Both the position numbers and the translations under genes were made by a program. Source: Tubulanus polymorphus (Eukaryota; Nemertea; Palaeonemertea; Tubulaniformes; Tubulanidae). Taken from it: a stretch of DNA of 64,000 nucleotides. Each line of letters starts with the position of its first letter. The stretch's first letter is position 1. Shown one piece after another: positions 18,376 to 46,504 of the stretch. The DNA lies in the NCBI RefSeq assembly GCF_964204645.1, contig NC_134036.1, positions 11,332,704-11,396,703 of the forward strand, in the 5' to 3' direction. The notes under the pieces are model-generated. The model was not told where the DNA came from. It saw nothing but the letters and a program-made list of their open reading frames with translations, and made no database searches.

Positions 18376-19930
18376 TTGAAAGCTCTCAACAAGCCAGATC
18401 AAAAATACCACAGATTGGACAAATCCTTTTTGCGGCAATGTCTATCAATATGGTCACTTAGTCCGAAGGTATACGAAGATCTAAGGTCAAGTGGGTTTTT
18501 AAAACTTCCTTCGAAACAACTATTAAAACTGTGCAAAAGTTCCGTCCCGCAAGAACCAGGCGTCAATTCAGATAAAATGCAATGGATGGTAGAAGAGGCA
18601 AAACGGATGAAAATACCTGGACATGGATACGAGGGTGGAATCGTTATCGATGTCAATTGAAGAAACCATACAGACAGTTAATGATGGCTACTGTTTGAAA
18701 CTTGTTGGTTTTGTTGACATGGGCGACGAATGTCAAAATCTGAAAAGAATAAAGGAGAAAACCATCGAGAGAGAAACTGCAAAGTACGTACTTCAAGTTG
18801 AATTTTTGGGGTTTTCTTGATTTCGATTTCCCATTTGCCACTATCCAACCAACCAAGCAAGTGCTACTGATTTATACGTGCTACTTTGGGATATCGTCAG
18901 TGAGCTGCGAATGTATGGCTTCAAGGTTTTGTATTGTAGTCTAGATGGGGACATCACAAACCGACAATTCATGAAACTTCACTTTAAAGGCGATCCGGCA
19001 ATAGATGACTTTCATATAAGAAATCCAATTACACAAACGGAGGATATCTTCCTTATAATGGATACAAAGCACAATCTAAAGAAGATACGAAACAGTGTTT
19101 ATTCGAGTGGAATTGAAAAACCTAGACATTTAAAATTTCAAGAGTACTATATTACTTGGAATATGTGGGAAGAAGTTTACGAGTGGGATCGGCGGAACCC
19201 AGTACAAGTTCACTACAATTTGTCAAGTGAGCTCATCTACTTAGACTCGGCAACCAAAATGAGGAATCACTTAGTGGAAGAAAATCTTGACATGGATATG
19301 TTGCAGCTTTTTATTTCATATCGGGTAAGATAATTCAGCTTAATATAGCCAAATAGCATTCAATATTTTGCTAATGACAACATTCATAAGATAAATGAGT
19401 TTTCACTTTTCAAATTGCAGGAAAGTCTTGGACAAAGCGGAAAAAACTGAACGGATTTATTGAGCTTTTACAACAGTTGTCATTACTAGTTAACATATTT
19501 CGCGATCAAAGAATACTACATGAACTATCGGATAATCGTAATGAGCAACTGAATCATATATTAGCTTGGTTGGTTCAAAGACTGGGAACACAGCGTTTTT
19601 GAATTGACGGATCTATCGGACGTAAAAAAGAGTAAAATTTTGCTAACTAAAGATGTCGTCAAGATCTTTATTCTTCAACCCAAGGCTTTCTAGCATTGTG
19701 CAAAGAAAGGTAAATAAATAAGAAACTTAAATAATTGTTCTGATTCTGAAATAATTATGATTGATATAAATCGTTAACAATTTTTCAGATTTAAGAAAAC
19801 ATCTGACATCAATATAAACCCGAGTCGGCTTAACAGCGATTCAGTAGAAAATCATTTTTGTCAGCAACGAGGAATCAACCATGGAAACAAGACCAATCCA
19901 ACATGTTTTGATTATCCGAAGGCCGAAAAC
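18376..19930 (+). pseudogene. P-element/THAP9-type transposase, broken, multi-exon
   Basis: Visible blocks in order: LSPKVYEDLRSSGFLKLPSK (18376-18660), GYCLKLVGFVDMGDE in a shifted frame (18650-18740), then VLYCSLDGDITNRQFMKLHF and FLIMDTKHNLKKIRNSVYSS (18878-19333). These match the RNase H-like core of P-element and THAP9 transposases; the aspartates in DMGDE, SLDGD and IMDTKH are at expected catalytic or near-catalytic places. A likely intron (GTAAGA at 19325, TTGCAG near 19421) leads to an exon with LLQQLSLLVNIFRD. Another (GTAAAT near 19711, TTTCAG near 19788) leads to PSRLNSDSVENHFCQQRG, the conserved carboxy-terminal segment. At least two frameshifts between 18.6 and 18.88 kb. The amino-terminal THAP finger is not visible and no terminal repeats were found. 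Confidence 0.75.
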
Positions 19931-21367: not shown

Positions 21368-21916
21368 TCACAATTTAAACACGATTTCACTCCAAATTCC
21401 TTCGCGCACGAAATATGAATATAAGTACCGCAGCAGTCTGTCTTTTGTCATTTCCAAACATACCGAACACGTATTCATTTTACAATTGGTTGTACAAGTA
21501 AAACAAAAGTTTTCTTCGTATCCGTCATACGTTCCGACGTCTCTTAAACATGACCAACATATAGTTTTATCACAACAATGAAGCAAATCTTCTCGCGCGT
21601 GACAGCGATAACAGTCTTTTTTCGCTAAACGTTTGATAATCCTAAAATGCACCACACAATCCTCGATAGGGCATTCGAAATTATGTTGAACGCTTAACCA
21701 CCGCGCATTCACTAACCAGCAATCTTGACAAATCGGTGTCTTGCAACACGTCGTTACTTGAAAACTACCGTATGTAATTGACGTATTACAATATTTGCAT
21801 ATTGTTGATCCGGTAGACCAGTCGATATCTTCAAAGTCGATATGTTCCGTGGTAACTGATCCTTTGCGGAAAATATTTTCAACGGTGAAAAATTTGGCAG
21901 ACATTTTGTACATCAC
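21368..21916 (-). CDS. Cysteine-rich zinc-binding protein, RING/treble-clef-like (copy 1)
   Basis: Intact 182-residue frame. It has about 22 cysteines in CxxC pairs: CKYC, CCKTPICQDCW, FECPIEDC, CYRC, CCDKTICWSC, CFTC, CSVC. The order and the NFECPIED signature are shared with the protein at 25699-26343, making the two paralogues. The repeated C-x2-C / C-x-x-x-I-C-x2-C pattern suggests two or three treble-clef zinc sites, as in RING or TRIAD proteins, but no standard RING spacing fits throughout. AATAAA (minus strand) at 21350-21355 lies just after the stop. A YY1-like AAGATGGCGTC lies about 120 bp upstream (22037-22047). Function unknown. Confidence 0.65.
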   Translation of the reverse strand: MMYKMSAKFFTVENIFRKGSVTTEHIDFEDIDWSTGSTICKYCNTSITYGSFQVTTCCKTPICQDCWLVNARWLSVQHNFECPIEDCVVHFRIIKRLAKKDCYRCHAREDLLHCCDKTICWSCLRDVGTYDGYEENFCFTCTTNCKMNTCSVCLEMTKDRLLRYLYSYFVREGIWSEIVFKL

Positions 21917-22005: not shown

Positions 22006-22544
22006 TGAGGGCGGAGGGAAAGTGGGAGATAATCCCAAGATGGCGTCTTTTAACGGCTATCGTGAAATTATGAACGAGTTTGGGCGAAAAATATTTCGCA
22101 ATAACAAGTGAAACCGTAAATCGTGTTCGGGCAAGTCATTTTCTGACAATAAAAACGCGATGTAAATCCATAAATTAATCATTCTGCTCAAAGACTTTGA
22201 ACAATCAACATCGACCTGTATCAACATACATGATGGATTCGACTAGTGGACAAACTACCTTAGAAATATGTAGTACACCAAAGTCATCTACTCAATCTAC
22301 AAAAAGAAAACGCCCTTCGCACAAACTCGACTTTAGTTTCTACTTAAAAAGAAAAAACTATCTTGTAGCTTAACGTTTCAACTCAATTCTATGAGCCGTT
22401 TTCAAAAAATTCACTATTGATATTGGACAGCCACTTGTCTATGGAAACCAAGTTTCTACTTCTTTTCCGTATTTGAGATAGTAGTTTTTTTATAAAGACA
22501 CATACCGGTATAGAATATTTTATTGTTTTATAAGTTCAATCGTT

Positions 22545-23148
22545 AATGACAACGCAGTCGCGGGCCCGTCGAAAGTTCAACGGAATACCTGGAACAATGA
22601 CCCCGAGCCTCATTATCTAGGATCGCTTGTATATGCCAGTGCTAAAACGTGGAAGGGGGCAAAACGTATAGATTTACGATCTTTCGAATGCTGTGAACGA
22701 AGAAAACAACTGTACCCCACTAAAAACGGTATTGCTTTGGATCTCCAAGAGTGGGTACATATAGATTATTGTAAAGCCGATATCGAACACGAAATTGCGA
22801 TCGTTAAAGAAGACATCGATTACGTGGGTGTGATGACCGTTGGTCGTTCGAACTTTATCAAAATATATAGATCTAGTCACGATCACCGTATTTACGTAGA
22901 TATCCAAAAAATACGATGAGCTTTTCGACGTTAATCCGACTAGATGAGGCGTTAAACTAACATTGGATCAATGGAAAAAATTGAAAGACATTAATTTTAC
23001 AGAAGATATATCCGAACTGGCTAATATTAGACCGTGCTGGTATGATTCGAGTCACTCGAATCAGCAATACAGGTGTCCGTACTGCGCAAAAGACACAAGC
23101 GGGGTTAGAAAAGCACTCGAATACGGGATAATGATAACCCAAGTATAA
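22545..23148 (+). pseudogene. Protein with two PC4-like (ssDNA-binding/coactivator) modules
   Basis: The open frame through 22550-22919 contains RIDLRSFE and LYPTKNGIALDLQEWVHID. This is the PC4/SUB1 signature (beta strand IDLR-x-(F/Y), then (P)TKxGIxLxLxxW). A second module begins with RIYVDIQKIR and, after a frameshift and an in-frame TGA (near 22920-22950), continues with GVKLTLDQWKKLKDI, the same signature again. A carboxy-terminal CPYC follows. PC4-type proteins bind single-stranded DNA and promote transcription or replication; two copies in one chain is unusual. The start is unclear, with no ATG near the open frame. AATAAA at 23208-23213, so normal polyadenylation is expected here, unlike the neighbouring RING genes. 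Confidence 0.65.
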
Positions 23149-23249: not shown

Positions 23250-23591
23250 ATTTTATTCGGATTTACTCTATAATAATCTAGCATTTTGGTCGTTTCACAG
23301 ACCCTGGATAGAATCATCAAAGAATGTAATTAAGTAATTAAGTAATTGAGCAACAAAAACCATTGACCCATCGTTACCATCTGCCATCTAAAATATCTGG
23401 TCAGTACCCCCCCCCCCCCCATATGTAACGGAATGGGGGCAGTATGAAAATTACGGAATTTAGTAATTTAGAAACCAAACCGAAAAGATAATTAAGTAGT
23501 TATGATTGGTCCATTGAAAACATCTGCAGCGTAAAGTTGCTTTTTTGCGTATAAAATATTCAGCAGAAGATATCGAAAATCCATAACCAAA
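23250..23591 (+). repeat. Duplicated upstream region of RING1 (partner at 24110-24438)
   Basis: Shares long stretches with 24110-24438: ATTTACTCTA(T/C)AATAATC, CCATTGACCC(A/G)TCGTTA, TAAAATATCTGGTCAGTACC, AGAAACCAAACCGAAAAGAT. Contains a run of 14 C followed by ATATGTAACGGAATGGGGG. The whole RING promoter was duplicated together with the gene. Confidence 0.85.
23550..23556 (+). promoter_or_regulatory. TATA box of RING1
   Basis: TATAAAA, 36 nt before the ATG at 23592, exactly the spacing seen in RING2. An inverted CCAAT (ATTGG) lies at 23505-23509. A TATA start would give a 5' leader of only about 10 nt. Confidence 0.65.
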
Positions 23592-23868
23592 ATGTCAAGC
23601 AAGTTTTTTTTATTGCAACTACGCTGCTACGCGGGGATGCTGTGTGTGCCTCAAAAGACGGCGAGCGTTGGTGGCCTGTGAAAACCATTTCTTGGCTAAC
23701 TATATTTGTATGGGATGTTTTATTCAAATGGTAGAACTACGTCCAGACTACCAACGGTATATTACATGCCCAATGTGTCACCGGGTATGGTATTTCGAGT
23801 TGATGAAAGCGCGCCATTCGACGTTGAGTGGTATGCGTGAAAGGCCACGTGAGGAAGACGCCGACTAA
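23592..23868 (+). pseudogene. Small RING-finger protein 1
   Basis: The ATG at 23592 follows the same ATCCATAACCAAAA leader as RING2. A frameshift, probably in the run of eight T at about 23605, separates the start from the RING frame. The RING reads CCVCL ... ACENHFLANYICMGC ... ITCPMC, matching a RING-HC finger (C-x2-C, C-x2-H, C-x2-C, C-x2-C). RING proteins are typically E3 ubiquitin ligases. The protein would be about 90 residues with an arginine/acid tail. Intronless. A histone-type stem-loop lies 40 nt after the stop. Confidence 0.7.
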
Positions 23869-23907
23869 GAAGAGTTATGAAAACGATACACTGCAAATAA
23901 AACGCAC

Positions 23908-23949
23908 GGTTCTTTTAAGAACCACCCTAAAATTCTCAGAAAGAGACAG
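23908..23949 (+). terminator. Histone-type 3' end signal of RING1 (stem-loop + HDE)
   Basis: Stem GGTTCT (23908-23913), loop TTTA, stem AGAACC (23918-23923), then ACCC as in metazoan histone mRNAs. CAGAAAGAGA (23937-23946) follows 13 nt later, like the U7-binding histone downstream element. A possible AATAAA overlaps just upstream (23896-23901), a caveat. Confidence 0.7.
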
Positions 23950-24109
23950 TTTTGCTAAGCTCCTCGCTTTATGCCTCAGTTTTTTCTTTTTTCTCAGAAG
24001 ATTAAAATGTGTAAAAAAATACATCAACCATTGTGAGGACCCGCTCTAACCAAAAGAGGGTTAACTAAAGTAGTGAAATTCTATCTTTTACGAATTTTAT
24101 ACGTTATTA

Positions 24110-24438
24110 TTCGGGTTTACTCTACAATAATCAAGCATTCTGTCGTTGACCAGCCCCTTCATACATTATATTATCAAAGAACGTAATTAAGTTATTGAGA
24201 AACAAAAACCATTGACCCGTCGTTAGCATCTGCCGTCTAAAATATCTGGTCAGTACCCCCATATGTATCGGAATGGGGGGGGGGGGGCAGTATGAAAATT
24301 ACGCAATTAAGTAATTTAGAAACCAAACCGAAAAGATAATTAAGTAGTTATGATTCGTCCATTGCAAAACACCTGCCACGTAAAGTAGCTATTGCGTATA
24401 AAATACTCGTCAGATGATCTCGAAATCCATAACCAAAA
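24110..24438 (+). repeat. Duplicated upstream region of RING2
   Basis: Partner of 23250-23591. Here the C run is 5 long and the G run is 13 long, the reverse of copy 1 (14 C, 5 G). Confidence 0.85.
24397..24403 (+). promoter_or_regulatory. TATA box of RING2
   Basis: TATAAAA in GCGTATAAAATA, 36 nt before the ATG at 24439. The CCAAT element of copy 1 is mutated here (ATTCG). Confidence 0.65.
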
Positions 24439-24753
24439 ATGACTAACAACAGTGGAAGATGGATGGTCATCCCGGACGATATCGAAGCAGTATTGGAGTG
24501 CGACATTTGTCTATTTTCCGGACAGCGGGCCTGACTGCTGGGCGAGCAATGCCAATATCGGCATCCACTATGCAATAATTGCACAGCAAGGCTAATCTGC
24601 ACCGGCTTGGACTCGGGCCGCGAGAATGCGGAAAATGTGATACATTGCCCGTTCTGTCGAAACGTGATTTATTGGATCCGTGTTATGAATCGGCATAGAC
24701 GAATGGTACGTAACCTGATAGAGAGGGCCAATCGGCGACGACAACAACAATAG
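24439..24753 (+). pseudogene. Small RING-finger protein 2
   Basis: A 104-codon frame from the ATG at 24439 with one in-frame TGA at 24532-24534. The RING reads ECDICLFS, QCQYRHPLCNNC, and VIHCPFCRNVIYW: C-x2-C, C-x3-H-x2-C-x2-C, C-x2-C. The carboxy end is basic (RANRRRQQQQ). Paralogue of RING1 with the same promoter. The RING core is intact, but the stop falls between the first and second zinc-ligand pairs, so the gene is dead unless read through. Histone-type signal 82 nt after the final stop; it converges with protease 1. Confidence 0.75.
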
Positions 24754-24834
24754 CTGCAGCGCCGATGATAATTAATGACGACGAGGAAAATGATGACCGC
24801 GACGACGACGACACAGGCAACCCCCACTCCAAAC

Positions 24835-24873
24835 AGTTCTTTTTAGAACTACTTCAATTTCCAAGAAAGAGCC
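24835..24873 (+). terminator. Histone-type 3' end signal of RING2
   Basis: Stem AGTTCT (24835-24840), loop TTTT, stem AGAACT (24845-24850), then ACTT. CAAGAAAGA (24862-24870) follows 11 nt later, exactly the core of the sea-urchin-type histone downstream element. Relative to RING1 the first stem pair is changed from G-C to A-T, keeping the pairing. Confidence 0.7.
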
Positions 24874-24922
24874 AGTGTTAAAACGCCTCGCCTCGCTTTT
24901 TGCTTCAGTTTTTCTCCAAGTT

Positions 24923-25440
24923 TTAACAAAACTTTTTTCCTCGGTGTGTACATAGGTGTAATAGTACAAATATAGCGTAATAACCGCATACATCGGATAA
25001 TACATTTTGATACATCTTATTATTATATTTCCAGTCTATACAATTTTCATCCAAGTATTTTTCTAATATTATAACATAAGTTCGGGGTAATTGCCCGAAG
25101 GAATAAAAAAAATAATCAATTCCGTATTCGTTTATATATATATAGCTAACCAGTGTTCGCCAGGCTCGTCGTGATTATCAGTGTTTACTACAAAACCAGC
25201 AGTATAGCTCGTTATATTCGGTAGTCTGTCACATGGGTAAACACCAAAGAAAAACGCTTTCAGACATTCGTCTTTTTTCATAAATTCTAAAATTTGGTTT
25301 GTGTACAACATGGTCTCTATATGACGTTCTTTAGTTACTTGTAGTAATTCGTCGAAAACGGCGTAAACAATCGAATTCACGTTATGCGGTAAAGCTTCAT
25401 CAAATCGCAGTAGTGATGGTGAGGTACTATAGGCCCGTGG
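24923..25440 (-). pseudogene. Adenain-type cysteine protease, copy 1
   Basis: The minus-strand frame contains FFGVYPCDRLP, FVVNTDNHDEPGEHWLAIYI (with the catalytic-type HW), then after a shift in a TA-repeat (about 25132-25145) a FYSFGQLP segment and NVLSDVCGYYAIFVL with the active-site Cys. This order (GVxPxDxLP, N-x-D ... PGxHWxAIY, (D)SFGxxP, (S)D-x-CGYY) is the adenovirus/Polinton protease pattern; these enzymes cleave virion precursor proteins and conjugates. The frame breaks in the TA run, D is replaced in FYSFG, and the end is truncated compared with copy 2. It ends 50 bp from the RING2 stem-loop, on the opposite strand. Confidence 0.75.
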
Positions 25441-25464
25441 TTAAATTGTGGTTGTGGTTAATCC

Positions 25465-25555
25465 AAGATGGCGGCGGTCATGTGAACCAAGATGGCGTCC
25501 ATCCAAGATGGCGGCGGTCATGTGACCCAAGATGGCGTCCGTCCAAGATGGCGGC
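25465..25555. promoter_or_regulatory. Five-copy YY1-like AAGATGGCG array
   Basis: AAGATGGCGGC or AAGATGGCGTC at 25465, 25489, 25505, 25529 and 25545, with GGTCATGTGAC/CACGTGAC E-box-like motifs between them. The repeating pair has a 40-bp period. AAGATGGCGGC is the consensus of animal YY1 and usually lies at transcription starts. Located just upstream of protease 1 (minus strand). Confidence 0.6.
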
Positions 25556-25698
25556 GGTCACGTGACCCCTATGATTCAAAAATTGCGGTGGATGCTCCCG
25601 ACAGCTGTTACCCGATTACTCATGCGATAATCCGCGTTCGAATAGATTAAACAATACCAATTAACGACAGTTATATATTTCAAACAATGTTATTTATT

Positions 25699-26343
25699 TC
25701 AAACCAAGATATATATGTAATATAGGAATAGCGTTCTATTTTTACATTTCATGCATTTGTTACGATTATTGCTGAACGCCTTGATACAGACATCGTGAAT
25801 AACGCATCCACAATATCTCTCAGTTTTGCAATGTTCCATACATATCACGCACAATTTAACGCTGCAAACACGCGATAAACACTTAAAACACATCTGTAAA
25901 TCAGATGATGTTTCGAGGTCACCTTTGCATTTTCTACAAAATGTTCCGGCAATACAGGACTGATGAACGTCAGGTGACTTCCAATCTTTACAGCGCCGAC
26001 ACATTGTTGTTCGGATCCTACGCGTCAAGTTATGAATAGCTGAACTATCTTCAATCGGGCAGTTGAAATTCTTTGAGTTAGGTTCACACCTTTTAACCGT
26101 TATCTTCCAACATACCGAACAAATACCTTTCTTACAACATTTCGTCAGTTTTATGTCCGAAATATGTAAGACAAGTCTACAATAACCATGACAAACTCCA
26201 TATCCTGGTTCACAGTCGAAACTAATCATCATTATTTCGCTTAATTCTATTTCGCTGCAATCAAAAAATGATTTTTCTAAGGTGATCAAGGAATCCAACT
26301 TCTTTGCAAATATTAAAATGATGTTATGAAACAAATCAAGCAC
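25699..26343 (-). CDS. Cysteine-rich zinc-binding protein, RING/treble-clef-like (copy 2)
   Basis: The frame is open from 26343; the first ATG pair, near 26230, is the likeliest start (MMISFDCEPG), giving about 175 residues. Shares with the 21368-21916 protein the CCKKGICSVCW, NFNCPIED, CRRC, CRKC, CFKC and CVICME spacing; all are C-x2-C knuckles. AATAAA on the minus strand at 25693-25698, overlapping the end of the gene. It is divergent from RING3, whose ATG lies 50 bp from the edge of this frame, suggesting a shared promoter. Function unknown; the frame is intact. Confidence 0.6.
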   Translation of the reverse strand: MLDLFHNIILIFAKKLDSLITLEKSFFDCSEIELSEIMMISFDCEPGYGVCHGYCRLVLHISDIKLTKCCKKGICSVCWKITVKRCEPNSKNFNCPIEDSSAIHNLTRRIRTTMCRRCKDWKSPDVHQSCIAGTFCRKCKGDLETSSDLQMCFKCLSRVCSVKLCVICMEHCKTERYCGCVIHDVCIKAFSNNRNKCMKCKNRTLFLYYIYILV

Positions 26344-26392
26344 ATTTACGTCAGGATATTTGATCGTTGTTAGTTACGAGTTAGTAAAGTTT

Positions 26393-26674
26393 ATGATGAC
26401 ATATGGTAACCAAAGAGTTGACCACACGCAGCACGACCAGTGTACATTTTGTGGGTCTTTTCTCGACCTTACGTGCCGTGTGTGTTTGGAGGTGTGCATG
26501 GACACACCGACATCATGCTGCGGAAAGCAGATCTACGTTAAGTGTATAGAACGCTTATAGAACGCACGAGATTACGAATGTCCGTATTGCCGAAGAGATG
26601 ACCGCGATCCACTGCCGTCGGAACAATGTCGTTCAATCCCGACGTATATGATTCCGAACGCGTATATATTTTAA
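26393..26674 (+). pseudogene. Small RING-finger protein 3
   Basis: From the ATG at 26393 the frame has CRVCLEVC, SCCGKQIYVKCIERL, a TAG at 26558-26560, then YECPYCRRDD in the same frame, ending at 26672-26674. This is a RING: C-x2-C, C-C-G, C, and CPYC. About 93 codons including one nonsense codon. It resembles RING1/2 in size, intronless form and histone-type 3' end, but the upstream region is not the same and no clear TATA is visible. It converges on protease 2. Confidence 0.65.
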
Positions 26675-26699
26675 TATCTGATGTGTACGAAGAAAAACC

Positions 26700-26740
26700 G
26701 TCTTTTTCAAGACCAACCTAAAATTCCAAGAAAGAGTCAG
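26700..26740 (+). terminator. Histone-type 3' end signal of RING3
   Basis: Stem GTCTT (26700-26704), loop TTTC (the canonical histone loop), stem AAGAC (26709-26713). CAAGAAAGA (26727-26735) follows 13 nt later. The stem sequence differs from RING1/2 yet still pairs. It lies 26 nt after the stop. No AATAAA is seen between stop and stem. Confidence 0.7.
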
Positions 26741-26983: not shown

Positions 26984-27600
26984 TTACATCAGTTTGAAAT
27001 AATTTACATTATCGTCTGTAACAATCTCGTCATTTCCCTTGGTATTTTTCGAAAAATACTTTTCAATTTCATTCAAATCCATTCCGTGACGTAATAATAG
27101 TTGTACAAACATCGCGTAATAACCACAAGTATCAGACATAACATTTTGATATTGGATAGATTTACAATTTTCGTGCATATAATTCGTTAAGATTTCATTA
27201 TAAAAATTCGGCGTTTTGCCAAAATCCAATTTTAGATCCGTCTATAAATTTGCCAATGAGTACCCGGTTCGTACGAATTATCGTTATTTACAATGAAACG
27301 ATAGGGTTTCAAACCATTTACCGCACGCATCATATCGCATGGAAAAACGCCTTTAAATCGAGGTTTTATACATTCGTCATTTTTCATTAATTCTAAAATC
27401 TGATTAGTGTATAACATGATAAAAATGAACTTTAAAAAATCGAACGCCTTTAAAAATCAATGGTAATGTCTCTATTTTCAGCGACTTGCAAAACTTCGCC
27501 AAACACGGCGAGTAAAACTAAATTTACATCGGTCGGTAAATCTTTATCCTATCGTAACTGAATTTTTTATGATGCACGTTGAATAAGCGATAAATGGTTA
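26984..27600 (-). pseudogene. Adenain-type cysteine protease, copy 2
   Basis: Fragments in order: DVNLVLLAVFGEVLQVAEN (near 27540), then KGVFPCDMM and FIVNNDNSYEPGTHW (27417-27232), then DFGKTPNFYNEILTNYM and NVMSDTCGYYAMFVQLLLR (27229-26984). Same motif order as copy 1, with His in HW and Cys in DTCGYY; the acidic DSFG motif has lost one residue by indel. Several frameshifts. The carboxy end is longer than copy 1 (about 35 residues after the Cys motif). Minus-strand AATAAA at 26975-26980. Confidence 0.7.
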
Positions 27601-36274: not shown

Positions 36275-36680
36275 GGTCGGAGATTGACGGAATTTACCGA
36301 GTGCTCACGGAAAACGAGATACCATCATCATGAATATAATCATATATTTGTAACTGTAGCATCATTGCTTGTTGATTGATCTAATTAAGTGTAATATAAA
36401 TTTGGATAAAATTATGACTGAAATCTGTGGAACCTTCTGGCTAAAAGACCGATTTTGTGGCGGAAAAAATCTGAATTTTGGCGAAAGTAAAACACCGTGT
36501 ATAAAGGCAAAAATGGTTTCGGGGTATGAATACCTCGAGGACTCAGGGTAGAGGTACTCATGTTTCTCTTCCACCCCGTTTAAATCTTTCGCCTTTTACT
36601 AAAGATTTCCGTGGAGAGGAACAATCAATGAGTCTATTGACTGATTTTTGAAGCCCTCCTCACCAGGAGGGTAACTTACA
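36275..36680 (+). repeat. Dispersed repeat flanking the second GPCR, copy 1
   Basis: Shared with 38961-39345 (GTCGGAGATTGACGGAATTT, TGGCTAAAAGACCGATTTTG, TACCTCGAGGACTCAGGGTA) and, for its end only, with 39622-39702 (CCGTGGAGAGGAACAA). Confidence 0.9.
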
Positions 36681-38960: not shown

Positions 38961-39345
38961 GTCGGAGATTGACGGAATTTACCGAGCACTCACGGAAAAC
39001 GAGATACCATCGTCATGAATATAATCATATATTTGTAACTGTAGCATCATTGCTTGTTGATTGATCTTATTAAATGAGATATAAATTTGGATAAAATTCC
39101 GACTGAAATCTGTGGAAACTTCTGGCTAAAAGACCGATTTTGTGGCGGGAAAAAATCTAAATTTTGTCGAAAGTAAAACACCGTGTGTAAAGGTAATGGT
39201 TTCGGGGTATGAATACCTCGAGGACTCAGGGTAGGTAGGTACTCTGGTTTCTCTTCAACCTCGTTTAAATCTTTCGCCTTTTACTAAAGACTTCCGTGGA
39301 GAGGAACAATCAATGAGTCTATGGACTTAATTTTAAAAGCCCTCC
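38961..39345 (+). repeat. Dispersed repeat flanking the second GPCR, copy 2
   Basis: Same family and orientation as 36275-36680. A third partial copy at 39622-39702. Confidence 0.9.
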
Positions 39346-39621
39346 TTATGACAATAATATAGGAAAAGTACTGTCATTCAATCACAACCAGCCAACTAAA
39401 TAACGGGGACAATCTCTTGGTTCTATACTGTAAATCTAAATGTATGGATTTAACAACTTAGTTTAATCAATGTAACCTCATTGTATTTAGAAGCGGGGGT
39501 TTCGACCCCCCACCTCGATTCAGCTCCCCACTAGACCCAGGTGGGTGATTAGCGCCGTTGTAAATGGGGTCAATCAATTGAGGGACACGTTCCCAATAAA
39601 AGAAAGATAAGATTTTTTTTT

Positions 39622-39702
39622 AAAATTTCCGTGGAGAGGAACAACCAATGAGTCTATTGACTGATTTTTGAAGCCCTCCTGACCAGGAGGGTAACTTATA
39701 AC
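39622..39702 (+). repeat. Third, partial copy of the GPCR-flanking repeat
   Basis: Carries only the 3' part: TTTCCGTGGAGAGGAACAAC and TTGAAGCCCTCCTGACCAGG. Confidence 0.85.
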
Positions 39703-40648: not shown

Positions 40649-41101
40649 TTGACCATGTCATCGACGATGGTTCGCCATGTCTTCAATCGCATCGATTATA
40701 CGTCATTTAAGCCGAGAACCAATGAAACAAATGCTCACATAAAAAAACGTAGCGCGATTTTACATGAATTGGCTCAATGCCAACATCATATCGCAATAAT
40801 ATATAAATATATTGTCGTTTACCCTATATTCTGTACACTATTCCAGTGTCAGCATTCGGAATCAGTATTTCTCAAAAGCTGTTACTTAGAAGATCTAAAA
40901 GATGAAGAAATATTAGGTTATTTCTATGAACAAGAATTATCACTTGTACCAAATCCAGATGAAATAGAATACAAAATAGAAAAAGTATTGAAAACAAAAA
41001 CTCTTAAAGGAAAAAAGTATTCTTTGGTGAAATATAAAGGATACGATGATAAATTTAATGAATGGATTGTACCTAGTAAAATTAAAAGAATAAATGAATA
41101 A
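40649..41101 (+). CDS. Chimeric frame: unknown N-part fused to Polinton integrase tail with chromodomain
   Basis: Continuous 150-residue frame. Residues about 1-70 (MTMSSTMVRHVFNRIDYTSF...) are unrecognised. From about residue 78 it is the carboxy-terminal end of a Polinton integrase: LEDLKDEEILGYFYEQEL, then a chromodomain with EYKIEKVLK and SLVKYKGYDDKFNEWIVP. The catalytic DDE core is absent, so the join is a truncation/insertion edge near 40.87 kb that happens to keep frame. A TATA-like TTATAAAATTTTATAA lies near 40578. The stop overlaps the ATPase start (ATGAATAA). Whether it is expressed is unknown. Confidence 0.6.
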   Translation: MTMSSTMVRHVFNRIDYTSFKPRTNETNAHIKKRSAILHELAQCQHHIAIIYKYIVVYPIFCTLFQCQHSESVFLKSCYLEDLKDEEILGYFYEQELSLVPNPDEIEYKIEKVLKTKTLKGKKYSLVKYKGYDDKFNEWIVPSKIKRINE

Positions 41102-41693
41102 AGATTTATTTATATTTGAACCGCATAATATGTTAGTTACTGGAGTAACCAATTGTGGTAAAACACATTTCATATTAGATTTGTTAGAAACTATTTATAA
41201 GAATCATTTTGATAATATAATATTATTCGGTCCTACTTATGAAATGAATAAAACATATAATAGGGATATAGTTAAAATAAAAAAGTTTATTATATTAGAT
41301 CCTAAAACAGTAAAAGAAAATTTAGATAATTGTATAAAAATAGCAATTGATACTTATAAAGGATCAAATACATTATTCATTGTAGATGATTGCGCTAATT
41401 TACATGATTCAAAAGTGAGAGAAAGTGAGTTATGTTACTTAGCTTTCTCTGGGAGACATTTTGGGATAACAACATGGGTTTTAAATCAAAAACATAATTC
41501 AATTGTTAAAGACTTTAGGGAGAATATAAGATTTCTAGTTTTATTCTACAATGAAGATAGAAAATCTATGCAACAATCATTGGAAGAAAATCAAATTATA
41601 CCTACTGAATTACATGATGAATATATGAATAAATTAAAGAATAATAAAGGTTCAAAATTATTACTGAGACTACAATTTCCCTATGAATATTAA
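41094..41693 (+). CDS. Polinton packaging ATPase (A32/FtsK-HerA-like)
   Basis: Intact 199-residue frame. Walker A is GVTNCGKTH (residues about 14-22), Walker B is TLFIVDDCAN (about 95-104), followed by SGRHFGITTWVLNQ, the sensor/arginine-finger region of this family. Such ATPases pump genomic DNA into the capsid. The length is close to the family minimum. It overlaps the integrase stop by a few bases (ATGAATAA), as expected for co-transcribed genes. The only obviously intact core Polinton gene in the window. Confidence 0.9.
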   Translation: MNKDLFIFEPHNMLVTGVTNCGKTHFILDLLETIYKNHFDNIILFGPTYEMNKTYNRDIVKIKKFIILDPKTVKENLDNCIKIAIDTYKGSNTLFIVDDCANLHDSKVRESELCYLAFSGRHFGITTWVLNQKHNSIVKDFRENIRFLVLFYNEDRKSMQQSLEENQIIPTELHDEYMNKLKNNKGSKLLLRLQFPYEY

Positions 41694-41699
41694 TGTATA

Positions 41700-42070
41700 A
41701 AATAACTATTAGTATACCTATGTATTACATACCCTAATACCTGATACCCTATTAGATACCCTAATACCTACTATGTATTAGATACCCTATTAGATACCTT
41801 AAATACTTAAAACCCCCTTTTTTAAAATAAATATTATCTATACAATTTTCAACCAATTTATTTTTATTTTTTCAACTATTATATGAATAAGTTTGAAAAT
41901 AATAAAGGTTATTTATTATTACTGAGGTTTCAATATAAATTTAAAAAAGAAATATAATTTAAGGTATTTTCAAATAATATGTATTAGATATGTATTAGAT
42001 ATGTATTAGATACCTTAAATACTTAAAACCCCCTTTTTTATTTACTATTATTTTATACAATTTTCAACTA
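41700..42070. other. Convergence region of Polinton copy B with AT-rich short repeats
   Basis: Repeats of TATGTATTAGATACC and two copies of a TACTTAAAACCCCCTTTTTT block (about 41800 and 42020). The second part near 41880-41960 is a diverged copy of the ATPase end (AATAATAAAGGT, TTACTGAGG). The same CCCCCTTTTT block is in the 2.5-kb element at 30.13 kb. Confidence 0.7.
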
Positions 42071-42103
42071 ATATTATTATTTGAGTTAAATATAATTAAT
42101 ATT

Positions 42104-42507
42104 TTAATCACTTTCACTATCATACCCTAACATTTTTTTCAAATTCTCTACCGAATTTTCTTCTTCAAATTCTTTATTATTTTTATACTTATTCTTCACC
42201 CTTTTTATCGCATCATCAATAGTTGTTTCATTGTTATGCTTATTCATCCAATCAAATTTATCACTATTTTCTACTTTATGTTTCATAGAATCTTTAATAT
42301 CAATATCTGTAACTATATTTTCATTATCATCTTTATAAGTGTTTGCTCCTAATATTTCATTTACAATGTTTGATCCTAATATTTTATTAGCATCGGTTAA
42401 ATCTAATTTATCTTTATTAGGTGTTGCTAATAATAAATCTTCATATAATTCTTTACCATTTACTTTTTTATCTGAAACAAACTTTGTAACATATTCAAAT
42501 GGGTGTT
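42104..42507 (-). pseudogene. Polinton hypothetical protein, acidic, downstream of PolB
   Basis: The frame is open from about 42507 but has its first ATG at 42286. The text is charged and low in hydrophobics (NKYKNNKEFEEENSVENLKK) and ends MLGYDSESD. It is joined to the truncated PolB carboxy end near 42.5 kb. No family recognised; the position suggests a structural or accessory Polinton gene that lost its start. Confidence 0.4.
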
Positions 42508-45500
42508 TTTAAGTCTTTTCTTATGTCATTTGTCTTGATTTTTAGTATGTACGCATCAGTATTGAAGCAAATTAATGGAAATCCGCAGTTAAATGTACGA
42601 TCTTCAGTTGATAAATCATAAACATAATCTGTTGGGTTATATATTTCAAATAAATCTTTAACTTCTTCAGTTAAATCTTTTTCTGTGTGGCTTAAATTAA
42701 AGCAATTTGGTTTAGATTTAATCAATCCAATATTCATATTGAAGCCTAATGAATTACATAATATGTTTAACCCTGATATAGCAACTTTTCCGTTTTGAGC
42801 TAAAGATATTGCAGGAGAACTCGTAAATTTTTTAGCACCATCTGCTGCGTAGAATCCAATGAAGAACCATTTTCTTAAATTATCTTTTGCATTTAATACA
42901 TAATCTGGAACTATCTTTTCTTTTGTTGAAGTATTACTTTTCACTATTGGATGAATATAGAATTCATCATTATATTTTATAGCAAAATCTTTAGGATTAT
43001 TTACAAGTATTCTATAAACTGCTGATGATTTCATAACATCCAGGATTCTAAATGTTTTATGTGGATAAACTTCTTCACAGAATTTCTTAATTCATTCTAA
43101 TAATTTCAAGTCTTGATTGCATAAATACCAACAATATTTATTACCCCAAACATAATTATACACACCTGCTGAACCATCTCCCATAAAAAATTCTTTGATA
43201 AAATATTCTTTTTCTTCTAATGTTTCGGGTTCTATATTGTAAATATTATCAATTATTTCATCAAATGACATATGATTCATTCTTGGGAAAAATCTTTTAT
43301 GTAATAATTCATCTCCAATTTTTATATCAGTTGGTTTTATTTCATCGCCATTTCGTTTAATTAAACTATAATCTTCTGTAACATCTACAAACCCTAATTT
43401 AGTTCTAACTCTATAGATCTTCTTATTTGTTTTATGCCTAATAATATTCTTTAATTTTTTTCCATCCATTTCTTGTCCAAACATCCATTAAAGCATTTAT
43501 TTATATCAATTCTTTTTCACCATATGAAATATAACATTCATTTTGTTTTGGAATTATTTCTGAAATTCTTCTTATCAATATTTTATCATTACATTTTAAT
43601 AATATTGGGGTGTCAGCTGTTACAGAATCAAAAAATAATATTTCAATATGCTTTTTCCCAAAAAGCGGTTGTAAAACACTATAATAAAAATCATACATTA
43701 ATAATTTTGATACTTCTAAAACAGTTGAACCAATGAATATAGGTTTATTAAATTTCATTGACGTTCTTTTTAATTTTACTGCTGTTAAATAATCTTCAAA
43801 TCTTTTATTTCCTAAATGTCTAGGACTTGATTGTAAATGTCTTAATCTTTCAGAATTATTTACTAATTCAATATCATTTCTATTTCTAATATTTTCACAT
43901 CTTTTACCATAAAAACTATTATTCATTAATTTGAAGAAATCTTTTTCAAAATCTGTTTTTGATATGGTTCTCTGTTGAGTATTGAAATCTATATATTTTT
44001 CTAACCACTTCGATTGATTAAATTCAATATATCTATGTACTTTTTTCAATTTCATTCCTTGTTTTAGATAAAATTTTAACATTCTATGATGAACGATATA
44101 ATTGTATTTATTATTTTGAGTAAGTATTAATTTTTCTGTAAAAACATGATCTTTCGGTTTTATTTTCTTCTGGTATTCACTTAAATAACTATCATCTACG
44201 GTTAAATGTTCTGGGCAATAAGGTAAGTTTCTTGTTTTAAACTTTAAATCTTCAGGATATTCTAAATCAACTACAAAGAAATAACCAATTGGTGCTTCAT
44301 CTTTTAAACTCGCAATTGCGCTTTCCCAATCAGTTTTATTATCATTTTCAACTTCTGTCAATATAAAATTTTTATATGGTTGAGGTTGCATCATTGCCCA
44401 ACCATATAAATTATTGGCGTCAATATATAATAATTTATATTCATCATTTGCTATAAAATATCTATCTCCCATAACACCACTAATTCCACCTCTAATTGAT
44501 TTTTCAAATAATAAAACCATATCTGGTTCTTTTAATTAACTTTCTTAGCTTGTAAATTACAATCTTCATGAGCAGCTCCACGATATTTTGAATTTAAATG
44601 ATCATGATCTCTAACTTTTTTATCAAATGAATAAAAACGTTTTTCACAATAACAACAATGAGTTGCATAATTAAAATCAATTTCATCTTCTTTTGTCATA
44701 ACTCTTCTTTTATTTTTGTTTAATAATTTTGCAAAATCACTTTCTAATTCAATCATTTTGTTACAAAAATCATTAACTACATTTTCACCTCTAAAAGAAA
44801 TATATTGACTTTCATATAATTCAGGATAATTTGATTTTATATAAATTCCATAAGCAGCAGCTCTTTGATGAACTTTTTTAATTGTATTTATAATTGGTGG
44901 GTCTAGTGTTGTGTCTTCATTTAATTCATTTCCTTTATCCATTGATTTTAATAATTGCTTTTTGTTATATATTTCTTTTCTATCTTGATCAGTTAATTCT
45001 TTATTTAACGATTCAAAATCCCCATAAATTACAAATGGAACAATATTTTTAAATTTATGATTAGTAAATTTCAATTTATAATCTTTTTCTGTTGGCATTA
45101 TTAATTCACAAAAATCTTTATTATCACATAATTCTTTATGTTTTAATAATGTATTCTCAGTCATGAATTAAGATAAACATTTTCTACATAGATAAATTTT
45201 ATTATGGTGATCACTTTCTGTTCTAAAGAATAAATCAATTTGTTTTAACCACATATAATGTTCATTTTCATCTTTTTTGTAATATAACAAATCTATAGGA
45301 TTTTCATCATCATAATATTCTGTTAAATATAAAGCTTCCAATGTATAATCTTTAATATTTTCACCTTTTGTCTTTGGTAATTGCATTAATTCAAATACAT
45401 TTATTTTTAAATTATTAACTTTTTCTATTTTAGGAATCATTTTTATAGTTACTGGATATTGATCAATTTTATATAATATTTCATATTTCCGGTAATTTGT

Positions 45501-46504
45501 TATTCTACAAACATTTTCCTGTGTTGGATGTAAGCAACTAATAATTGACCATAGAAAACATTTATTATCTTCATTTTGAATATTTATTACTGCTTTTGTT
45601 GTAAATGGTAATTTAATATAAGATGATGCTTTAATATCCTTTTCTGTTGTAAAGTTTGAATCATTTTTAAACATTTTTTTACTTTTTGATGTTTTATTTC
45701 TTTTTGTATTGTAAACATTTAAATCTAAATATATAATTTCATTCAATGTTAAGCCGGAACCCTCAAAATATCTTTCTTCAATATGACGTTTAAATTCATT
45801 AAATATTTTTTCTAACTTCTCTTTTTTTGTGTTTTTGAAATTATTTCTTCAGAGTGTGTTTGAATATTATAATTCATTTTTTCTTCTGACTTTATAAAAC
45901 TTACTTTCCCAGAGATACTAATTTTTGGATATTCAACATCTGTTATCAAATCTAGTATTTTTTCTATTATTTCATTAAATGTACTATAATCTTCTATTGT
46001 TGTACCTTTAAAAAATCTAAATATAATAGCTGCAGGACCAATTTTACTATGTAATGTTTCTAAAATTTCAATTGTATCTTTAATTTCTAGTGAATCAATA
46101 TAATTTCTAACATTTTCCATGTAAGGTTTATTTGAAATGGATTTAGTTTTTGAAGTTGTTTTTTTTACTTTTTGAGGTTTATCATCAAAATAATCTTTTC
46201 CTAAAACATTATTACTCAAATTTTGATGGTGTTTTTGTGATTCGAGATGTCTATTATAATTCCTTTTTACTATAAATTCATTACAAACTTCACATTTTAT
46301 TTCATCCACATTCATATTTTCTAATCTTTCTTTTCTTTCATTGGAATTTTCTGGAGTTTCAAAATCTATTACATTTTTTATATGATTTGCAGTTTTTTCG
46401 TGTCGTGTTTTATGAGATGTATCGACGTATTTTTTACAATATGTGCAATAATATTGATTTTTATTAACATTATTATTTTCTGGCTGGTGTTCATTCTCCC
46501 CCAT
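42508..46504 (-). pseudogene. Polinton protein-primed DNA polymerase B, copy B, intein-interrupted
   Basis: From the ATG at 46504: two or three C2H2-like fingers (YYCTYCKKYVDTSHKTRH, KCEVCNEFIVKRNYNRH), the LNEIIYLDLNVYNTKRN block, exonuclease motif FVIYGDFESL, and the DHDHLNSKYRGAAHEDCNLQ patch. A deletion near 44.53 kb skips the later exonuclease motifs. Palm: KLLYIDANNLYGWAM (motif A) and KLMNNSFYGKRCEN (motif B). Motif C is split by an intein after LFFD; the following TDA is at 42560. The polymerase is cut off soon after (LKIKTND). Frame breaks near 45.78, 45.17, 44.53 and 43.50 kb. Priming and replication of the element would need an intact copy elsewhere. Confidence 0.9.
42561..43626 (-). 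pseudogene. Intein with LAGLIDADG endonuclease in PolB motif C
   Basis: About 1066 nt between LFFD and TDA. Amino-terminal splicing block SVTADTPILLKCNDKILIRR; block B region IIRHKTNKKIYRVRTKLGF then VTEDYSLIKRNGDEI. Homing endonuclease motifs EYFIKEFFMGDGSAG and KWFFIGFYAADG each keep the acidic residue. Carboxy-terminal blocks VYDLSTEDRTF and LICFN before extein T. This is the class 1 intein layout at the pol-c site known from archaeal and giant-virus PolB. Changes: block B His is Tyr (VTEDY), the penultimate His is Phe (CFN), one frameshift/stop near 43500 and an in-frame TGA near 43092. A full-size, recently active but now decayed intein. Confidence 0.85.

Follow-up and report, generated by a model that had tools for sequence, protein, structure and literature searches.

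Histone-type 3'-end signals after RING-like genes of a Polinton-type element in Tubulanus polymorphus

The locus raises the question of whether a gene of a mobile, virus-like element could end in the manner of a replication-dependent histone gene. The window, the whole 64-kb stretch of Tubulanus polymorphus DNA analysed here, was initially annotated as carrying three small RING genes, each followed 26-82 nt after the stop by a stem-loop (loops TTTA, TTTT, and TTTC) and a purine-rich block.

Stem-loops and purine blocks in the window

All three stem-loops are located on the forward strand: GGTTCT TTTA AGAACC at 23908-23923 (6 bp; RF00032 score 29.0 bits; fold -7.0 kcal/mol, z -3.8), AGTTCT TTTT AGAACT at 24835-24850 (6 bp; 26.4 bits; -5.3 kcal/mol, z -3.9), and CGTCTT TTTC AAGACC at 26699-26714 (19.3 bits; -3.2 kcal/mol, z -1.7). 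The outer C.C pair of the third is unformed, leaving 5 bp at 26700-26713 with the loop TTTC. HDE-like purine blocks were identified on the same strand, CAGAAAGAGACAG at 23937-23949, AAGAAAGAGCCAG at 24863-24875, and AAGAAAGAGTCAG at 26728-26740, and a AGAAAGAG-type block stands 12-14 nt past the stem-loop at all three RING-like genes. The stop-to-stem gaps, 39, 81, and about 25 nt, are close to those first given. A further block, CCTCGCTTT..TTCAGTTTTT, which had been described as common to the three copies, was recovered as a single 23-nt pattern at RING1 and RING2, and only in part at RING3. A T-rich tail was also observed 3' of the hairpins in the window.

The histone stem-loop model RF00032, which had been proposed as a check, matched all three stems over its full length (1-46), with E values of 3.4e-4, 3.4e-3, and 1.4 for stems 1, 2, and 3 in the whole-64-kb scan, though all three scores are below the Rfam gathering score of 34 bits. 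When the 64 kb was compared with all 4227 Rfam families at E <= 10, these three stems were the sole RF00032 matches.

Chance hairpins in AT-rich DNA are one alternative: single stems are frequent (126 in the window, 66 + 60, by a loose rule), and the purine motif by itself is not rare (five matches at up to two mismatches against 5.3 expected in the window). Both strands were scanned for stems of 5 bp or more that enclose a TTNH loop and are followed downstream by [CA]AGAAAGA. This rule returned exactly the three RING-associated sites (a lax stem scan also caught hairpins rich in A+T close to the end of PC4, which are left out of the counts), and among 200 dinucleotide shuffles, 175 contained no stem-block pair, 25 contained one, and none contained more. 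A strict stem pattern was also found in two IMG/VR contigs, which would agree with chance, both matches overlapping ORFs and lacking the purine block; a looser pattern of stem and HDE gave 103 stretches in IMG/VR, of which 80 were examined and three had at least 5 bp. The shuffles, the model scores, and the covariation and recurrence after RING loci described below together argue against chance, which we regard as very improbable. The stem-loops and purine blocks noted in the initial annotation were thus borne out by the model matches and the shuffle control.

A probable decayed copy of a Polinton-type element

The RING-like genes were found where they had been annotated, but are not intact. 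The RING1-like remnant (23592-23868, +) retains an open RING frame but lacks an in-frame ATG at the expected start, the RING2-like remnant (24439-24753, +) is broken in frame, and the RING3-like remnant (26393-26674, +), read by eye, contains an in-frame TAG. RING2 shares 51% identity with the RING protein of locus L039 elsewhere in the genome, over 88 aa, and in part matches PF24921 (E=1.4e-6). The assignment to RING proteins has to be worded with care: the PF24921 scores of 28.7 (window RING2), 20.3, and 20.6 bits are all below the cut-off of 50, RING1 has no Pfam match, and RING3 gave no match from either RING search, while the cysteine/histidine spacing is RING-like by eye. RING1 has 12 matches in the genome, itself among them. 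Its upstream region (23253-23591, +), which holds TATAAAA, is 82% identical by blastn alignment to the homologous region upstream of RING2 (24107-24438, +).

The other genes of the island include two ORFs for a cysteine-rich zinc-binding-like protein, both on the minus strand: copy a (21368-21913), 77% identical over 157 aa to an ORF of locus L035 and followed by A[AT]TAAA at +13 after its stop, and copy b (25699-26232), 27% identical to copy a. Two broken copies of an adenain-like protease are also on the minus strand, copy a (24923-25311) with pieces 93% and 86% identical to the open protease of L039, and copy b (26984-27418) with pieces 62% and 46% identical to it. A PC4-like gene (22485-23148, +; PF02229, E=2.1e-6, 27.6 bits, cut-off 25) is split over two frames, the second piece having been assigned on visual inspection and on its similarity to P0001-P0003; proteins of T. 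polymorphus are 93%, 88%, and 70% identical to it.

This gene set is best explained by descent of the island from a Maverick/Polinton-type virus-like element of T. polymorphus, of which it would be a decayed copy. The L039 locus encodes an integrase (rve, E=2.2e-9, with a chromodomain, 1.3e-8), a putative adenain-like protease in an open frame (Peptidase_C5, E=4.3e-4, 20.5 bits, slightly below the cut-off of 21.3), and two candidate capsid ORFs of 387 and 275 aa, which have no Pfam capsid match and are called capsid-like by resemblance. PolB was identified in L035 (DNA_pol_B_2, E=4.3e-23) and in L051 (5.1e-6), and a packaging ATPase in L051 (Adeno_IVa2, 27.1 bits; Pox_A32, 26.1 bits; both above cut-off); the PolB genes lie in other 10-kb stretches than the L039 genes, and the gene set is a composite of several loci. 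The proposal of a mobile element or virus agrees with these Polinton-type genes and with the 60 PC4-type matches in the genome, fragments counted in. An origin from a Malacoherpesvirus or another large virus was followed as a lead only, and was abandoned after the Polinton-type genes turned up. No relatives of the zinc protein, PC4, the protease piece, or the capsid-like protein were found in IMG/VR, protein searches with the zinc protein and with the open RING of L039 likewise yielded no relatives, the PC4 protein search returned only T. polymorphus sequences, and PDB sequence searches gave nothing informative.

Recurrence and conservation of the site across the genome

RF00032 matched 47 sites in the genome, as scored on 75 of 42273 candidates: 15 after core histone genes, 11 after RING matches, five more beside capsid-like genes, and 16 unassigned. 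Seven are above the gathering score (four element copies, one histone, and two unassigned), and the four element stem-loops, at 35.4, 35.4, 34.8, and 34.8 bits, are equal to or above the best host histone stem-loop. After merging, a site follows 23 of the 34 RING loci at a distance of no more than 400 nt. Fifteen of these sites were recognised by the Rfam model or by reading of the letters and eight by pattern only; no site was detected at the other 11 loci. Pattern searches have a large background, one giving 15 matches against 27 in the reversed control and that for the inner stem plus AAGAAAGA giving 34 against 24 in the control.

RING frames free of stops are present in L035, L037, L039, and L043, encoding 110-113 aa with the stem 48-66 nt past the stop. 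The dN/dS values of 0.10-0.15 (three usable pairs out of six) show that the open RING coding genes elsewhere in the genome are under purifying selection.

Covariation was examined in an alignment of 12 rows, representing 11 distinct copies, with 6 stem pairs and 66 cells, of which 98.5% are paired; sliding the stem partner lowered the pairing to 20-58%. Compensatory double changes were observed at four of the six pairs, a number reached in 3 of 500 shuffles, and double-change cells amounted to 12 against a shuffled mean of 3.9, a value reached in none of 500. The count of further pair types, four against 6.0 under shuffles, goes against covariation. The second (G-C) and the loop-closing (U-A) pairs are invariant; these are the pairs on which SLBP places constraints. 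Altogether the alignment supports the view that the stem is kept through compensatory changes across element copies, in line with the early impression that stems which differ and yet stay paired are under selection.

Alternatively, an ancestral element may have acquired a histone 3' end on a single occasion, and duplication may since have multiplied this end along with the RING gene, leaving it without a present role in processing. The element sites do look related, sharing the purine block and a CCTCGCTTT-like tail, and the RING units are duplicated and arrayed, 15 of the 34 merged loci lying inside 30 kb on C3. Such passive spread is at odds with the compensatory changes and with the purine block, which is 93% identical against 36% for the adjoining pre-stem spacer (6 rows picked from 12). 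The site is also retained beside capsid-like genes: 15 of the 27 capsid-like loci have a convergently placed site within 3.5 kb, including all three full-length copies at 57-58% protein identity, and the 12 without a site are all five at 38-40% identity, two at 27-32%, and five partial or split loci (best pieces 55-86%). The stem, predicted to be conserved in related copies, is found also beside the capsid-like gene of diverged copies. Neither the absence of a model match nor the loss of the stem in related copies, both named in the initial annotation as grounds for rejecting its proposal, was thus observed. Capture without present function appears unlikely.

The hairpin with its T-rich tail could also be a terminator, an insulator, or a DNA-level signal for recombination or packaging, with a convergent likeness to histone ends. 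At L039 the RING and protease genes converge on the hairpin, where a terminator could be needed, and the downstream T-rich tail in the window would fit. The RF00032 match, however, spans stem, loop, and flanks at up to 35.4 bits, such a hairpin would not be expected to have a purine block at the distance seen in histone genes, and the block is absent from all 14 other gene ends examined, making this reading quite improbable.

Some histone variant genes are dual-ended, producing both stem-loop and polyadenylated mRNAs, and the RING mRNAs might be formed likewise. The AATAAA reported before the RING1 stem is present, A[AT]TAAA being found at +28 after the RING1 stop and again at +133, and at +349 after RING2, whereas it is absent within 600 nt of the L039 and L035 RING genes. 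Thirteen of the 14 other gene ends carry A[AT]TAAA, which is weak evidence because this motif is frequent in AT-rich DNA. Dual ends are, in our estimation, unlikely.

Predicted processing and comparison with known systems

We consider it quite probable, from the sequence signals, that the RING-like gene of this multi-copy Polinton-type lineage ends in a histone-type 3' processing signal, most likely processed by SLBP and U7. Host SLBP would bind the stem of the RING-like mRNA, while its purine block would base-pair with the U7 snRNP; cleavage by CPSF73 between stem and block would give an mRNA that ends in the stem-loop and is free of poly(A). Such an mRNA would be made mainly during S phase, when U7/SLBP processing is active. 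We lean, with less assurance, toward the fuller proposal that the lineage matures its own RING-like mRNA through host SLBP/U7, with expression tied to S phase and free of poly(A)-dependent control; the product may also have ubiquitin-ligase activity. These features suggest that a mobile element may have borrowed the cell's finishing route for histone messages.

On the host side, no U7 snRNA gene above the cut-off was detected in the genome (best 28.0 bits against 34, E 0.05). The stem-loop sites of host H3, H2A, and H2B gave no match to the inner stem plus exact AAGAAAGA; the host block, spacing, or inner stem may differ. Another pattern, CTTTTHAGRGCCAC..AAGAAAG, also gave no match and was dropped as evidence, because the histone-cluster stems are absent among the 22 matches of GGYYCTTTTHAGRRCC and the pattern is thus incapable of matching them.

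If the proposal is correct, a histone 3' end on a non-histone gene of a virus-like element would break the rule for ends of this kind. It would offer a natural experiment on the requirements of SLBP and U7 and reveal a novel route by which an integrated virus can sense the S phase of its host; RING genes are open in several genome copies. It would be, to our knowledge, the first non-histone gene of a selfish element to use SLBP/U7 maturation.

The site has in common with replication-dependent histone genes a stem of 6 bp, in which the second G-C pair is invariant, and a 4-nt loop rich in U. A purine-rich block containing an AAAGAG core lies 12-14 nt past the stem, and the gene is short, has one open frame, and lacks A[AT]TAAA within 600 nt (L039 and L035). 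It differs in that the gene is RING-like and part of a mobile element, and its exact block was unmatched by pattern at host H3, H2A, and H2B. AAAGAG is given as the purine core of a mouse H2a HDE (PMC7026596). The Hydractinia variant histones H2A.X.1 and H3.3.2 carry 3'UTR stem-loops (PMC5011920) and resemble the RING-like gene in that a histone stem-loop is found at a single-locus gene away from the canonical cluster, but are still histones. The statement that no such case had been described needs a qualifier, since a 2025 survey of Polinton-like virus and virophage genomes counts six histone 3'UTR stem-loop matches (PMC12220804); the elements are related, and the survey section that lists them gives a bare count with no comment on gene, HDE, conservation, or function. 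With Maverick/Polinton elements (adintoviruses), the T. polymorphus element shares PolB, an rve integrase ORF with chromodomain, an A32/IVa2-like ATPase, and many dispersed copies, and probably also an adenain-like protease and candidate capsid-like ORFs. It differs from them by its TBP-like, PC4-like, and RING-like genes and by the histone-type end of its RING gene, a combination of which we know no description in this group.

Stem-loops and purine blocks after the RING-like remnants

Downstream of all three RING-like coding remnants of the window (RING1, RING2 and RING3, plus strand), full-length matches to the Rfam histone 3' stem-loop model RF00032 were identified at 29.0, 26.4 and 19.3 bits, and the covariance model recognized each of the stems proposed in the initial annotation, albeit below the gathering score of 34. 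The E-values (3.4e-4, 3.4e-3 and 1.4) were counted over all 4227 families; Rfam E-values scale with the number of families, as stated by the tool, and those for RF00032 alone would be about 4000 times smaller. No further RF00032 match was detected in the 64-kb window up to E = 10. The pairing of stem and HDE-like purine block, HDE being the purine-rich histone downstream element targeted by U7, was also recovered: the combination was found three times, and never more than once in any of 200 dinucleotide shuffles, while the block taken alone (CAAGAAAGAG in the element, containing AAAGAG) was not more frequent than expected by chance. The isolated stems gave folding energies of -7.0, -5.3 and -3.2 kcal/mol (z of -3.8, -3.9 and -1.7), the third being the weakest by bits, E-value, folding energy and z.

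The coding sequences themselves had been described as three RING genes, a description that does not hold for the window copies: the RING1 frame is open but no ATG in that frame marks its beginning, RING2 shifts frame, and RING3 carries a TAG in frame. The protease and PC4 genes are likewise fragmented, and a tandem repeat with a 40-nt unit (ATCCAAGATGGCGGCGGTCATGTGA...) is located at 25461-25568 between the protease and zinc-protein remnants. The upstream regions of RING1 (23253-23592) and RING2 (24107-24438) are 82% identical up to the start codon, with much greater divergence in the coding parts; the RING coding part seems, from these sequences, to change faster than the surrounding regulatory frame.

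The Polinton-type element and its RING-like gene

The window corresponds to G000:C12:11332704-11396703, and searches were performed over the 267.8-Mb, 77-contig assembly of T. polymorphus. Among the related copies elsewhere, RING frames are uninterrupted over 110-113 aa at L035, L037, L039 and L043, with the stem 48-66 nt past the stop. The stem is also present at L033 and L047, where the RING frames are interrupted, and at L034, where it is preceded by a RING1-type gene with an open frame of 94 aa, only 52 aa of which follow an ATG. Since dN/dS was 0.15 (L037-L039), 0.10 (L037-L043) and 0.14 (L039-L043) in the three usable pairs, the three pairs involving L035 being saturated, the RING-like protein has evolved under constraint. 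As a separate observation, 15 of the 34 merged RING-like loci of the genome lie inside 30 kb at G000:C3:21226310-21256339, as if a RING unit had been multiplied in place, and six of these 15 carry a downstream stem-loop or pattern site. RING loci are also located on C1 (14.51 Mb) and C12 (10.44 Mb).

Opposite the RING-like gene on the other strand, L039 carries an adenain-like protease, two capsid-like ORFs, so named by resemblance, an integrase and a TBP-like gene. The RING, protease, capsid-like and integrase parts occur together at L037 (C-terminal part of the integrase only), L039 and L043, and at L033 with a broken RING, a set thus recurring at four places on contigs C1 and C12; PolB was found at L035 and L051, and the packaging ATPase at L051. 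Judged by sequence, this gene set, pooled over copies, is that of a Maverick/Polinton, for which hallmark genes, together with those of related viruses, are named in PMC10120064. The PC4-like ORF (22485-22919) is 93, 88 and 70% identical to three T. polymorphus proteins, beyond which no match at E <= 0.1 was detected in a set of 5.8 billion proteins (six candidates scored), and PC4-type matches in the genome number 60, fragments counted. The TBP-like gene is located at L039:9300-9824 (minus; PF00352, E=8e-35) and L051:9257-9784, and one Polinton-type element hence encodes two Pol II transcription factors, TBP-like and PC4-like.

Another Polinton-type element, with a GC content of about 23-30%, lies at 40655-46504 of the window. 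It has a chromodomain ORF, a Pox_A32 ATPase (43 bits) and, by eye, PolB in broken pieces that may include an intein; it gave no RF00032 match. Other features of the window are clustered U5 snRNA sequences at 36554-36672, 39239-39354 and 39581-39692 (two over the Rfam cut-off and the third below it at 26.7 bits), and, at 18821-19333, a fragment similar to transposases that have a TNP-like RNase H domain (PF21787, below cut-off at E=9e-4).

Distribution and conservation of the signal

A total of at least 47 RF00032 matches was identified in the genome, a lower bound because only 75 of 42273 candidates were scored; in prokaryote controls, matches below the cut-off appeared in nine of 14 and none above it. 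Assigned to neighbouring genes by distance, 15 of the 47 come after core histone genes (seven H3-like, seven H2A-like and one H2B-like by our reading of PF00125 matches), 11 after RING matches, and another five adjoin capsid-like genes, to which they are likewise placed convergently. For the remaining 16, including G000:C11:8859436 and C3:15758071, no adjoining RING, capsid-like or PF00125 match was found; two of them exceed the gathering score, and the sites may belong to H1, H4 or variant histones, or to additional genes that are not histones.

The 37 RING matches were merged into 34 loci, and in 23 of these a site follows at no more than 400 nt: 11 were recognized by the Rfam model, four by reading of the letters (L033, L034, L035 and window RING2) and eight by pattern only, with stem pairing not seen. 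The pattern GGYYCTTTTHAGRRCC occurred 22 times in the genome against three for the reversed control. Inner stem plus exact block gave 34 matches, 16 of them after a RING locus, and the other 18 are at background level because the reversed control gave 24; with a separate earlier pattern, 11 of 15 matches came after RING loci (reversed control, 27).

Anchored instead on the capsid-like gene (39 matches, 27 merged loci), a convergent site was found within 3.5 kb of 15 loci, the chance being about 0.0003 per locus, at a distance of 664-1262 nt at 14 loci and 3125 nt at one. These include three full-length loci (protein 57-58% identical) and a 55% identical fragment. No site within this distance was found at 12 loci, namely every one of the five with 38-40% identity, two with 27-32%, and five that are partial or split, with best pieces at 55-86%. 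From this distribution by identity, the signal seems to be a feature of a single clade of these elements, within which it has outlasted much protein divergence.

Stem covariation was examined on twelve 3' ends (11 distinct), the element sites found in the sequences read, comprising six stem-and-loop types. The structure is kept across copies: both-sided changes occurred in four of the six stem pairs, and 98.5% of cells were paired over the 12 rows. The pairing and covariation scores were reached by none of 500 column shuffles, which relatedness alone may beat, as the tool warns; the tally of doubly changed pairs, which this affects less, was equalled in three of 500. Further pair types were fewer than in shuffles (4 versus 6.0), since the variable pairs come in only two types each. 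In six rows picked from the twelve, identity was 93% in the purine block, 75% between stem and block, and 36% in the pre-stem spacer.

The purine block was present at all five RING ends examined and at none of 14 non-RING gene ends. For the minus-strand genes and the PC4-like gene the initial annotation had given AATAAA; A[AT]TAAA lies within 600 nt at 13 of the 14 non-RING ends, with the protease as the exception. The motif follows window RING1 and RING2 within the same distance and was not found at L039, L035 or window RING3; since AT-rich DNA of this kind contains it often, what is informative is its lack at RING ends, seen in few genes (three of five ends). Altogether, the histone-type 3' end signal on this RING-like gene of a Polinton-type element is real and under selection; the processing machinery that it would use, and a coupling to S phase, are inferred.

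Comparison with histone genes and other elements

Host histone 3' ends lie at C10 (8.36-8.43 Mb) and C4 (26.41 Mb). Histone matches scored 27.8-34.8 bits and element matches, including window RING1, 21.6-35.4, indicating that the better element sites score like histone sites and the weaker ones lower. No stem-loop site of the host H3, H2A or H2B genes was matched by the pattern that joins the inner stem to the exact AAGAAAGA; either the block, its spacing or the inner stem differs in the host histone genes, or the host U7 does not read the element block. The sea-urchin HDE is CAAGAAAGA. No U7 snRNA over the Rfam cut-off was detected in the genome (best, 28.0 bits); a U7 candidate lies at C2 16.587 Mb. 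The AAAGAG of the element block is also the purine core of a mouse H2a HDE (PMC7026596).

Cnidarian histone ends are described in PMC5011920. The initial annotation knew of no described case, and in the open-access literature searched we found none devoted to Polinton or viral genes with histone-type 3' ends; the claim is qualified by the survey PMC12220804, which, with none among cryptophyte elements and no discussion in the section giving the count, reports six 'histone 3'UTR stem-loop' matches in its set of Polinton-like viruses and virophages.
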